A stretch of DNA of 34,550 nt from a virus, in the IMG/VR virus record IMGVR_UViG_3300047181_000005, positions 1-34,550 of that record, one strand, 5' to 3'. Under the pieces are notes generated by a model, which was not told the DNA's origin, did no database searches, and saw nothing but the letters and a program-made list of their open reading frames with translations. The stretch's first letter is position 1. The number at the start of each line of letters is the position of its first letter. Positions 23,312 to 34,550 of this stretch are shown piece after piece. The translations under genes and the position numbers were made by a program.

Positions 23312-23556
23312 CGTGTGTTTCTTGTTGATTTATATCCGCAAGTCGGACAAGTATTCAAGTCGTCAACCGCTTTTCTCGGGTTTACTTCTCCGAAAATGTA
23401 GTGACACTTTATACAATACGGCAAGTCCGAGTTTCCGTATTTTATAACCTCGTCGCAGTTAGGACAACAAGTGTTCCCCACAAGGAAAGTTCCGAAGGAG
23501 ATCAGTCCGATCGGCATTGTTGGATATGCGGGAGGGTTAGAAGGTGCTTTTTTCAT
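23308..23556 (-). CDS. Small double zinc-ribbon-like protein
   Basis: 82 aa with three CxxC motifs: CPNC, CIKC and CPTC, enough for one ribbon plus an extra pair. Begins as TAATG on the exonuclease stop codon and overlaps the next gene by 4 nt, so it is co-translated with the recombination genes. May bind nucleic acid or a partner protein. Confidence 0.55.
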   Translation of the reverse strand: MKKAPSNPPAYPTMPIGLISFGTFLVGNTCCPNCDEVIKYGNSDLPYCIKCHYIFGEVNPRKAVDDLNTCPTCGYKSTRNTR

Positions 23557-24242
23557 TATAGCGTCATTGAATTGAGATATTCCCGAGCGTCGATGATTCT
23601 GTTGTACATCATCGTCATTTGTTCTTCGTCGAATTCAACCGTGAATTCCTTGACCTTGAGTTCGTCAGCAATGTCATTGTAGGTCATATTTTTCTCGATT
23701 TGCTCCGAGATTTCAACGTATAGATCGTCAGTGTCTTTGATTCCCTTGTAGAAAGTCTTTTTCTTCACTTCGTCATAGATCAATCCCTCCGGTGTGTTCA
23801 CTAGACAATAGGTGAGAATTGCTTTCTTTTGCCCTGTGAGTGCCATGTACCCCATGAGTTGCCATAGATAAGCGTCTGAACACTCATCAACGTTGCCGAA
23901 TGTAAAGATATCCCATGCGGATTTGATGTCTCTGAGTACAGGAACAACAACGTCAGGCGTCCCGGTGATGAAATCGTTTGAAAGTTCTTCCCTGTTCTTG
24001 ATGAGAAGTTGCTTTGAAACTCGAGTTGCGAGAGAGAGAGAATCTTCTTCAACAGTTGTTCCTTTCTCGAGAAATTTGCTGTCGATTTCTTTCTTTCGTC
24101 CGAACATTCTCTCGATATACACCTCTTTGAGATATGATTTTGTCGTCTCCGAGAGTTTTTCTGATTTATTGCGCGGATTTGTTGCAAGTTTTGACAACTG
24201 CGAACAACGGCATTTCCAGTCTGTAAAATCAATTTTTTTCAT
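23556..24242 (-). CDS. PD-(D/E)XK recombination exonuclease
   Basis: 228 aa from ATG at 24242; a TTG 12 nt upstream is a weaker alternative. The nuclease core is clear: E in the LEKGTTVEEDS helix, GTPDVVV, then RDIKSAW (D-x-K) and YLWQLMGYM with the conserved Gln, the order found in lambda Exo/YqaJ-type and RecB-like nucleases. It follows recT, so the two probably form a two-gene single-strand annealing system: the nuclease resects ends and RecT anneals. Slightly short for YqaJ, so it may be a distinct subfamily. Confidence 0.75.
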   Translation of the reverse strand: MKKIDFTDWKCRCSQLSKLATNPRNKSEKLSETTKSYLKEVYIERMFGRKKEIDSKFLEKGTTVEEDSLSLATRVSKQLLIKNREELSNDFITGTPDVVVPVLRDIKSAWDIFTFGNVDECSDAYLWQLMGYMALTGQKKAILTYCLVNTPEGLIYDEVKKKTFYKGIKDTDDLYVEISEQIEKNMTYNDIADELKVKEFTVEFDEEQMTMMYNRIIDAREYLNSMTL

Positions 24243-24274
24243 ATTACGATTCAATCATTTGAGTTTTTCCCATG

Positions 24275-25213
24275 TTATTTCTTCACCGTTTTTGATGTTA
24301 GTTCAGCGAGCTTTGCTTCATAGAGTGTGTTCAATTCGTCTGTGATGACTGACTGATCGAATAGCATGACCTGATCGAGTTTTTCGATTGTGTCAGATTT
24401 TTCAATCCATTCACGGATTCTGTCTTGCTCCTTTCTGACTTGCATTTCACCGAGAGTTTCGGGAGTGTTGTCAGGATATTCCGCGCTTCCGTTTGGAGTG
24501 ACAACGGCTTGATCGTATTCGATCGCCTGTTGCATTTCTACTGAGAGAGGAGCGGATCTTGAGAGAAGAAGTTTTAGAACAGTTTTTTTCGCCATTGCTT
24601 CGAAGTCTGTTTCCCACTTGCTCGATTTTCTGATCCAGTCTTTGTCACTTTTGAAAGTTTGAGAGTATTTCTTTCCATGATTGAAGAGTTCGTCCTCGGT
24701 CATGTATAGAGTGTCTTCGAGACCTGATTTGAGAATGAAGTATGCAACGAAGCCGACGTTCTTGAGTTCATTGCGTTTGTCGTTGTCAATTTCCCACTGA
24801 AAGTCAATTTCACCAGTCAGGCGATTGATTGATCTGAGTTCACCTTCCCGGACGTCAGAGACGTTGATTCTCTTGAATTGACCTGATCTGATTGCGAGTT
24901 GTCGGAAGCCTTTATATCCGAGCTGAAACTGTGCTGAAGATGTTCCGTCTTTTTGCTTATAGGGAATAACATACGCGAACCCGAGATTCTGATTCACCGG
25001 GAGATCAAGTGTCGAAGCCTGAAGACAGGCGTTGATCACTGACAACGGCTCGCATTCTGCAATCTTCGGATTTGTATTGACTAGGGAGAGAACTGATGTT
25101 CGAAACGCGACTCGCTTTCCTTCCGTTGCGAACGACTTTTCGAGACTGCGCTTCAATGCGTCAGAGTCGAGGAGGACTTTGATGTCTTGTTTCACTTGAA
25201 TATCACTCGTCAT
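24275..25213 (-). CDS. recT: RecT-family single-strand annealing protein
   Basis: 312 aa. It carries the RecT core: LSLVNTNPKIAECEPLSVINA, ASTLDLPVNQNLGFAYVIPY, AQFQLGYKGFRQLAIRSGQF, and WETDFEAMAKKTVLKLLL. RecT binds single-stranded DNA and anneals complementary strands, promoting phage recombination and concatemer or circle formation. A promoter (P4) lies just upstream, and the exonuclease gene follows after 32 nt. The start has no Shine-Dalgarno. Confidence 0.93.
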   Translation of the reverse strand: MTSDIQVKQDIKVLLDSDALKRSLEKSFATEGKRVAFRTSVLSLVNTNPKIAECEPLSVINACLQASTLDLPVNQNLGFAYVIPYKQKDGTSSAQFQLGYKGFRQLAIRSGQFKRINVSDVREGELRSINRLTGEIDFQWEIDNDKRNELKNVGFVAYFILKSGLEDTLYMTEDELFNHGKKYSQTFKSDKDWIRKSSKWETDFEAMAKKTVLKLLLSRSAPLSVEMQQAIEYDQAVVTPNGSAEYPDNTPETLGEMQVRKEQDRIREWIEKSDTIEKLDQVMLFDQSVITDELNTLYEAKLAELTSKTVKK

Positions 25214-32815: not shown

Positions 32816-33403
32816 TCATATCACTTTCCACTCTTTGAGTTTTGACTTGAAGAACTCCCTCCTTTCCGCAATGTATTCGCGAGTCACCTCGGCTTTCGGT
32901 CGATAGAGCAACTTCTTCATTTCGGCGACACGCTCCTCTCCATATCTTTGAATCATAAAATCCGTATAGTAGTGAATGTTCCCCCCTTTCTCGAGATTGC
33001 ATGAGTAGCATTGACAATGAGCATTGTCAGGAAGTAGCCACGCGTCAAGTTTTACCCTCGGAATAAAGTGACCTCCCTGAAACTTCGTCCAGTGCTTGAC
33101 AACTGAACAAGTGACGCACTTGATGAGTCCAGTTTTGACGTCTCCTCGATCGAGAAGATCTTTGAATCTGTAATATTTCGAGCCGTATGCGTCCCATGCC
33201 AATTGACAGAGTTTCCGAAGTGAGAATTTCTTCTTCGTATCCTTCGGAAGTTTGAGTTTCTTTGAAAGAGCATTGATTTCAACTGTAGTCTCTCGAGAAA
33301 GTGCGAGTTTTTTGAGTGGTCCGACAATCTTCGGGATTCCCGCGATCTTATTGAATGCGATTTCTTCGTCTGAAAGAACGCGCGCTTTTTTCTTTTGAAT
33401 CAT
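32816..33403 (-). CDS. ninG: NinG/Rap-like recombination endonuclease
   Basis: 195 aa. The NinG pattern is clear: CVTCSVVKHW (about 96-105), GGHFIPR (110-116), DNAHCQCYSCN (126-136) and GNIHYY. NinG (Rap) proteins bind and cut Holliday junctions and D-loops. The start has AAGGAGG 4 nt upstream, the strongest Shine-Dalgarno in the window, inside the overlapping end of the initiator gene. Confidence 0.85.
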   Translation of the reverse strand: MIQKKKARVLSDEEIAFNKIAGIPKIVGPLKKLALSRETTVEINALSKKLKLPKDTKKKFSLRKLCQLAWDAYGSKYYRFKDLLDRGDVKTGLIKCVTCSVVKHWTKFQGGHFIPRVKLDAWLLPDNAHCQCYSCNLEKGGNIHYYTDFMIQRYGEERVAEMKKLLYRPKAEVTREYIAERREFFKSKLKEWKVI

Positions 33404-34341
33404 GATTCCTCCTTGAAATATGTATCAATCTCCTTCTCCGGCTTCAATCCCATAACCTGACGAACACGCTCCTCACGCGTCGGCTCTTTGATCTTCTTCC
33501 CTCTGAGCGGTGAATGAATCAACTTGTCAATCCCTTTGTGAATTTTTGCTTCAACGTAGGGAGAGCGAATCTCTTTTTGAACTGCGATTTTTTTAGCAAC
33601 TCTTTCAGCGAGCCCCTTTGCGAATCCGTTCAATTGTACAGGCTGAGTCACCGGCTGTTCGGGACTGTTTTTGACAACAGGCTTCTCAGGAACTTTGAAA
33701 CGAGGAGAAATCGTGAAGGATTTGAATTGATCCTGTTGAACTTTCTGCTCGAAGTGAAGTTTCCAGTTTGTGATCTTCGAATGATCGTGTGTTTCGTAGT
33801 ATGCAATGATCAGTTTCCATGCTTTCGCAACGTCTCGAGTTGGGAACTTCTCTTGAAGATCTTTGATAACTTCTTCTTTTTGAAGTTTGAATTCTTCGAA
33901 AGGCGACATATTGTTTTCTTTGTCATTGTTGTCATTGTTGTCATTGTTGTTTGTTGTCGTTTGCCTGTCGTTTGACTGTCGCTTTCCTGTCACGTTGTTG
34001 ACTTTCTGCCTGTCTTTGTCTTGGTATTCCGAGTAATTTTTGACCGTAACGACGGAGAATTTTGAGTATGTCTTGACTGTCACTTCGCCTGTCGTTTTGA
34101 GTTTCGACAACGCTGTTCTCAGTTGACGGATTGACAGTCGCGTTTCTTCACTGAGAGCAGGGTATCCGATGATCCGTTGACCGCGTTCAATTTCTACTCC
34201 ATGCCATGAGTTCGGCTTGTGATTGACTGTGAGCAATAGATGAATGAAAAGTCTCGAGACATTGATGTCGTCGTACCATTCCCACGCGAGAATTTTTCGG
34301 CTGAGTGTAACCCACCCGGAGAGTTCAGAATTGATTTTCAT
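33400..34341 (-). CDS. Replication-initiator-like protein (winged-helix, DnaD-type N-terminus)
   Basis: 313 aa from ATG at 34341. Residues 1 to about 95 match the N-terminal winged-helix of phage replication organisers: GWVTLSRKILAWEWYDDINV, RLFIHLLLTVNH, RGQRIIGYPALSEETRLSIRQLRTAL. A disordered Asn/Asp/Thr-rich linker (about 105-140) follows, then a helical domain (about 145-210) and a basic tail. It likely binds the origin and loads host replication factors. The linker DNA holds tandem TGTC repeats. There is no Shine-Dalgarno. A 17-nt overlap joins it to a small ORF upstream. Confidence 0.72.
   Translation of the reverse strand: MKINSELSGWVTLSRKILAWEWYDDINVSRLFIHLLLTVNHKPNSWHGVEIERGQRIIGYPALSEETRLSIRQLRTALSKLKTTGEVTVKTYSKFSVVTVKNYSEYQDKDRQKVNNVTGKRQSNDRQTTTNNNDNNDNNDKENNMSPFEEFKLQKEEVIKDLQEKFPTRDVAKAWKLIIAYYETHDHSKITNWKLHFEQKVQQDQFKSFTISPRFKVPEKPVVKNSPEQPVTQPVQLNGFAKGLAERVAKKIAVQKEIRSPYVEAKIHKGIDKLIHSPLRGKKIKEPTREERVRQVMGLKPEKEIDTYFKEES
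33921..33998. repeat. Tandem TGTC iterons, candidate replication origin
   Basis: On the plus strand three perfect 9-bp TGTCATTGT repeats (33921-33947) are followed by four tandem 11-bp units at 33955, 33966, 33977 and 33988 (TGTCGTTTGCC, TGTCGTTTGAC, TGTCGCTTTCC, TGTCACGTTGT). Looser TGTC elements follow at 34011, 34078 and 34090. An 11-bp period is out of phase with codons, so coding repetition does not explain it, and it places one site per helical turn. Iterons inside the initiator gene recall lambda O. Confidence 0.55.
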
Positions 34342-34486
34342 TTTTGTTGCGGTTGATCTTATATTCAAGAGCACTCAAGGGAGAGAGCCTTTCGACTGAT
34401 ATTCCGAGCCATAACCGCAACAGAAACGACTCAGAAATGCGAAGACTCTCTCGATTGAATGTTCTTTGATGAAGTTGCGGTTTCAT
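34325..34486 (-). CDS. Possible 53-aa leaderless ORF under P1
   Basis: An ATG at 34486 opens 53 codons to a TGA at 34325, overlapping the initiator gene by 17 nt in another frame. The ATG is 7 nt after the P1 -10 box, about where transcription should start, so the mRNA could be leaderless. The peptide is basic and helical (ESFLLRLWLGISVERLS). It could be a small regulator or coincidental. Confidence 0.35.
   Translation of the reverse strand: MKPQLHQRTFNRESLRISESFLLRLWLGISVERLSPLSALEYKINRNKNENQF
34346..34482. repeat. Three GTTGCGGTT motifs around the first gene
   Basis: GTTGCGGTT occurs at 34346-34354 and 34474-34482 on the plus strand and inverted at 34413-34421. The 9-mer appears three times in 137 bp between P1 and the initiator start codon, so it may be an operator or an initiator-binding site. 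Confidence 0.45.
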
Positions 34487-34550
34487 ACTGAGAGAATATA
34501 CTCTCGAAAGGAATATGTCAAGACAAAAAAAGAGACCGCCACTGCCCCGG
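34424..34550. repeat. Terminal direct repeat, right copy (circular overlap)
   Basis: Identical to bases 1-127. In this copy P1 sits directly upstream of the replication-initiator-like gene, which shows the operon order across the circle junction. Confidence 0.9.
34493..34521 (-). promoter_or_regulatory. Promoter P1 (right copy), first promoter of the replication/lysis unit
   Basis: Minus-strand TTGACA (34516-34521), 17-bp spacer, TATTCT (34493-34498). The predicted transcript start is near 34486, about 145 nt upstream of the initiator-like gene. A GAGAG-6-CTCTC dyad at 34490-34505 covers the -10 and could be an operator. One copy of the GTTGCGGTT motif lies just downstream. Confidence 0.8.

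Follow-up and report, generated by a model that had tools for sequence, protein, structure and literature searches.

In-gene 11-bp iterons as the probable replication origin of a circular phage, and their covariation with the winged helix of the phage initiator

The window (the whole 34,550-nt stretch of viral DNA analyzed here) carries, in the part of its initiator gene that codes for a disordered linker, a segment that very probably represents the replication origin of a circular phage and would be bound by the winged helix of the initiator itself. The segment contains a real array of four tandem 11-bp iterons, which is conserved at the DNA level and adjoins a tract rich in A; its letters covary with two winged-helix residues in a nearly deterministic manner (Table 1). 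That the protein binds the array, opens the strands and loads a helicase, and that the segment is active as an origin, is what we infer. Iterons inside the initiator gene had been proposed as a likely origin in the initial annotation of this DNA, and the conserved 11-bp period, the A-rich tract and the covariation with the helix-turn-helix support this proposal. While an in-gene iteron origin is of a known kind, of which the window provides a further example, the residue-base code described below is the new part. The segment provides a testable origin for this phage as well as a route to the origins of related phages from sequence alone.

Initiator gene and repeats in the window

Bases 1-127 of the window are repeated exactly at 34424-34550, indicating a complete circular genome of 34,423 bp; the initiator gene is located near the arbitrary cut of the circular record. 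The gene matches PHROG 2514, a DnaD-like helicase loader family (E=1.2e-30), as well as several PHROG families described as 'replication initiation O-like', in agreement with the initial annotation, which had described an initiator-like host gene with a product of 313 aa. In an AlphaFold2 model, the winged helix is predicted with a pLDDT of about 95 over residues 30-100, and residues 60 and 72 are located where the two helices of the helix-turn-helix have their N-terminal ends. Residues 112-141, part of a linker rich in N, K, Q and T, form a mostly disordered segment, which is followed on the C-terminal side by less certain helices. A sequence search of solved structures found no convincing homologue (8pqm at E=0.03), and a fold search found generic winged helices only, none at E<=0.001.

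Table 1. Features of the initiator gene and of the candidate origin (positions in the window)
Feature	Position	Strand	Description	Basis
Initiator gene	33400..34374	minus	313 aa when started at the ATG (34341); 324 aa when started at the GTG (34374)	translation; PHROG matches
Winged-helix DNA-binding domain	34027..34314	minus	covers residues 10-105 approximately; iteron letters covary with residues 60 and 72	model pLDDT, covariation
Probable outlying iteron GACAGGCAGAA	34004..34014	minus	upstream of the core array in the coding direction, at a distance of 23 bp (about two turns)	
Core array, four 11-bp iterons GACAGGAAAGC, GACAGTCAAAC, GACAGGCAAAC, GACAACAAACA	33948..33991	minus	period kept in 153 relatives	
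9-bp codon repeat AACAATGAC, three copies (Asn-Asn-Asp)	33916..33947	minus	inside the A-rich tract, off the iteron lattice	
A-rich, AT-rich tract, candidate unwinding element	33905..33954	minus	coding strand with 70% AT and 58% A	

The array, which reads GTGACAGGAAAGCGACAGTCAAACGACAGGCAAACGACAACAAACA on the coding strand, is located within the DNA coding for the disordered segment. Its TGTC boxes on the plus strand (33955-33958, 33966-33969, 33977-33980 and 33988-33991) are spaced by exactly 11 bp, and the corresponding GACAR boxes on the minus, coding strand start at 33991, 33980, 33969 and 33958. It represents the one chain of at least three GACA/TGTC motifs at 11-bp spacing in the whole window, and a chain of four was found in 0 of 300 simulated second-order Markov genomes; the four contiguous 11-bp TGTC units reported initially are confirmed. 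The probable outlying iteron also falls in the region of the linker that shows self-similarity at a lag of 11.

Two further groups of repeats had initially been counted with the iterons. The three 9-bp copies of TGTCATTGT, with TGTC at 33921, 33930 and 33939, are real, but they represent the in-frame codons AAC AAT GAC inside the A-rich tract and do not fall on the 11-bp lattice. Relatives of the gene showed weak DNA-level constraint at a lag of 9 (mean z 1.07, with p<0.05 in 14%), and a role of these repeats as iterons was not supported. Scattered TGTC elements are likewise present at 34077-34093; they sit in conserved winged-helix codons, where they are probably coding and need no origin explanation.

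The A content of the tract at 33905-33954 corresponds to the 99.9th percentile for A in the window genome. Among 128 relatives, the array itself has an AT content of about 0.55, the 40 nt after it reach 0.76-0.79, and the value then drops back to 0.62. This AT peak is located directly 3' of the array, and in its coding strand A is in strong excess over T.

Conservation of the 11-bp period at the DNA level

Relatives were collected from 62 viral and 80 prophage loci and a further 80 viral loci, yielding 155 non-redundant winged helices, 153 of which could be tested. In these 153 genes, the best 33-nt self-match at a lag of 11 averaged 25.2/33 in the linker, compared to 14.2 in the winged-helix codons; a lag of 22 was second highest in the linker (22.1), and the remaining lags gave 15-20. 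When synonymous codons were shuffled with the amino acids held fixed, the lag-11 match of the natural genes yielded a mean z of 3.06 with p<0.05 in 82% of the 153 genes, and p=0.003 for the gene in the window. Among 131 clean arrays, the unit letters were AACAA (23), AACCA (21), GACAA (20), GGCAA (19), GACAG (10), GACCA (10), GGCAG (9) and others, and the linker residues varied along with these letters. Since the 11-nt period stays constant while letters and residues change, it represents a property of the DNA. The initial annotation had named amino acids kept with the 11-bp repeat lost as the pattern that would count against its reading; the opposite was found, and the 11-bp phase, which it had suggested comparing in related phages, is conserved above both controls and synonymous shuffles.

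These data bear directly on whether the repeat could have arisen incidentally from a protein linker of low complexity, with selection or slippage acting at the amino-acid level and the period in the DNA as a mere by-product. The N/K/Q/T-rich, disordered nature of the linker and the presence of a nearby 9-bp repeat that is a codon repeat would fit such an origin. However, as 11 is not a multiple of 3, the units of the array are read in three frames, the period is destroyed by synonymous shuffles and 11 bp is kept in relatives with other residues and letters, so that an amino-acid repeat was rejected and the initial view that the spacing cannot be a codon repeat holds. Taking into consideration that the array letters also covary with a distant domain, the by-product explanation is extremely unlikely.

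When the DNA pattern alone was used as a query, 13 of 21 matches fell within winged-helix initiator genes, including subfamilies that the protein search had missed. Seven other matches in viral contigs (L065, L068, L070, L078, L080, L081 and L084) were set aside as one unrelated repeat family; they have in common 11-bp GACAGTCAAGC repeats, which are located outside initiator genes in short ORFs with shared flanks. Another match, L071, was set aside because it is located outside any initiator; at 306-331 it carries GACAGTCAACC units at 11 bp beside inverted ACTGTC copies, upstream of an ORF encoding a portal-protein-like protein of 541 aa. In two distant relatives, Vibrio phage 1.167 (L261) and Pseudoalteromonas phage SL25 (L255), the period in the linker is 23 bp (about two helical turns) rather than 11 bp.

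Covariation of iterons and winged helix

The 11-bp units were aligned without reference to the protein and then compared with the columns of the winged helix. Two couplings were dominant, one between residue 72 and unit bases 1, 2 and 11 and the other between residue 60 and base 4, and both persisted among sequences of under 60% identity (n=70). At residue 72, Gln was found with AA at bases 1-2 in 49/50 arrays, Arg with GA in 35/36 and Lys with GG in 30/31; at residue 60, Arg was found with C at base 4 in 31/32. The residue 72 rule was obeyed in 114 of 117 arrays (maximum of 59/117 for shuffled pairings) and the residue 60 rule in 127 of 131 (maximum of 99/131). Contacts of Arg or Lys with G and of Gln with A are textbook contacts. 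The window follows both rules, with Arg72 and GA, and with Tyr60 and A. Some remote homologues (phiAT3, A403 and SA345) do not obey the code.

Disjoint closest pairs were counted in place of tree-based independent pairs. Bases 1-2 differed in 56 of 57 pairs with a different residue 72, as compared to 3 of 55 pairs with the same residue, and base 4 differed in 29 of 32 pairs with a different residue 60, as compared to 5 of 58 pairs with the same residue. In the tree-based analysis, supported branches were too few for significance or for an event count, and the direction was never opposite. Out-of-sample prediction was right for bases 1-2 in 8 of 9 cases and for base 4 in 21 of 23, after removal of loci that repeated training contigs (11/13 and 26/28 before removal); the mispredicted cases were remote homologues.

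As the letters of the array track the winged helix encoded by the same gene, the initiator most likely reads its own iterons. The probability of a different reader, such as a host factor or a packaging or recombination protein, is close to negligible, as the letters follow two winged-helix residues encoded by the very gene that holds the array and as recombinants exchange the winged helix and the array jointly.

Judging from sequence comparisons, natural recombinants exchange the helix-turn-helix and the array together. Between locus L060 (the same locus as L267) and locus L266, the shared fraction is 96-98% in the flanks and 96-100% in the C-terminal coding DNA, but identity is only about 53-77% across the winged helix and array; one of the two has D72 with CCCAA and the other K72 with GGCAA. 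The winged helix and array are swapped likewise in the S. aureus phages SA345 and PVL and in the Vibrio phages 1.116 and 1.167, and in the coliphages Sf6 and HK022 the swap pattern was seen for the C-terminal side. Among the swap comparisons, no pair was seen that had the same winged helix with unrelated downstream DNA. By locus, the swap pairs are L266/L267, L254/L259, L245/L261 and L256/L257; the C-terminal part is near-identical within each pair, as are the upstream flanks in the first three. An exchange of the winged helix in the initiators of two Gordonia phages has been published without mention of iterons (PMC10684548).

Overall, we consider it probable that recognition follows a two-contact code, in which residue 72 specifies bases 1-2 and residue 60 specifies base 4, and that winged helix and iterons are exchanged as one recombination cassette, altering origin specificity and leaving the C-terminal part of the initiator in place. 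Neither the residue-base code nor its occurrence across host phyla was described in the open-access literature searched, which does not prove novelty, as subscription papers were mostly outside the scope of the search. If the code is true, protein sequence could serve to predict the iterons of many uncultured phages. The residue-to-base rules predict the binding target of each initiator and could be tested with one or two substitutions. The exchanges suggest that phages may change origin specificity by swapping the helix-turn-helix-plus-iteron cassette, which could be relevant to whether co-infecting phages are compatible, and to satellites or defences directed at phage origins.

Origin function and comparison with known systems

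In the mechanism that we propose, the winged helix of the 313-aa protein would bind the GACAR boxes with one protein per 11-bp turn, and the monomers would thereby be lined up on one face of the DNA. The ordered complex could then strain and open the A-rich tract next to the array, and the replicative helicase may be brought in with the help of the helical C-terminal part. This helicase is probably the host's, because no helicase or ATPase loader was recognizable among the 29 window proteins scanned. The detrended GC skew has its minimum at 1594, which would fit an origin near 34 kb, but with p=0.057 it is not significant and was rejected as proof of an origin.

The initiator could also bind the array for autoregulation or copy control only, with replication starting elsewhere, given that covariation indicates recognition rather than origin function and that the GC skew is not significant. 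This seems highly unlikely, as the array is located mid-gene, far from the start codon of the initiator, an A-rich tract adjoins it in 128 relatives and the same layout is a working origin in lambda (PMC7466680) and SPP1 (PMC6316719).

Several known systems resemble the window in layout. Tandem 11-bp units inside the initiator gene are shared with the P22-type initiators, i.e., phage L gene 18, ST64T, Sf6 gene 43 and HK022 O. Phage L gene 18 carries six imprecise 11-bp TGTCCAACGGA repeats, which were termed the likely origin; the same study noted that initiators of distant relationship seem to differ in the iterons that they bind within their respective genes (PMC8022706). In the Sf6 record, a putative rep_origin is annotated at the site of the in-gene repeats. 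The window protein matched Sf6, HK022 and ST64T by tblastn with E values of about 1e-8, and those phages also have lag-11 arrays; PHROG 2514, tblastn and the model together point to a homologous winged-helix N-terminal domain of the DnaD-like, P22 gp18 type. By comparison, the units of P22-type initiators are GTCCA or TACCA rather than GACAR, and residue 60 is Arg and residue 72 is Asn or Asp, as compared to Tyr60 and Arg72 in the window. In addition, the P22-type initiator gene is followed by a DnaB-like helicase gene and that of the window by a NinG gene; a neighbouring helicase or loader gene, which is common but not strictly defining in the P22 gp18 type, was not found among the 29 window proteins scanned and is also unannotated beside the gene in some relatives.

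The window also shows two traits of the lambda O and SPP1 G38P type, namely tandem, DNA-conserved in-gene repeats and the presence of an adjoining AT-rich tract. In ori-lambda, the iterons are found mid-initiator gene, and the neighbouring AT-rich tract is the one that opens (PMC7466680). The iterons of lambda measure about 20 bp (PMC8022706) and those in the window are direct 11-bp units, so that the window protein does not represent lambda O proper, to which its sequence is linked through the PHROG O-like profiles only. SPP1 G38P and oriL are likened to the window by published description, as gene 38 contains direct repeats together with an AT-rich unwinding element; theta replication of SPP1 has been reconstituted in vitro (PMC6316719). 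Staphylococcus phage 80alpha ORF20 resembles the window in that the gene is annotated as containing a putative origin and has an N-rich stretch after the repeats; it is not complemented in trans, which suggested an embedded origin (PMC5499656). Unlike the window, 80alpha ORF20 shows no detectable homology and no 11-bp period (best lags of 30 and 15), and it was rejected as a member of the family.

With regard to neighbouring genes, the initiator and NinG genes are directly followed by a glycosyltransferase family 1 gene (PF00534, 31676-32809), which precedes an M23 peptidase gene. The NinG, RecT and exonuclease genes, at 32816-33403 and 23556-25213, represent a recombination set that accompanies the initiator.
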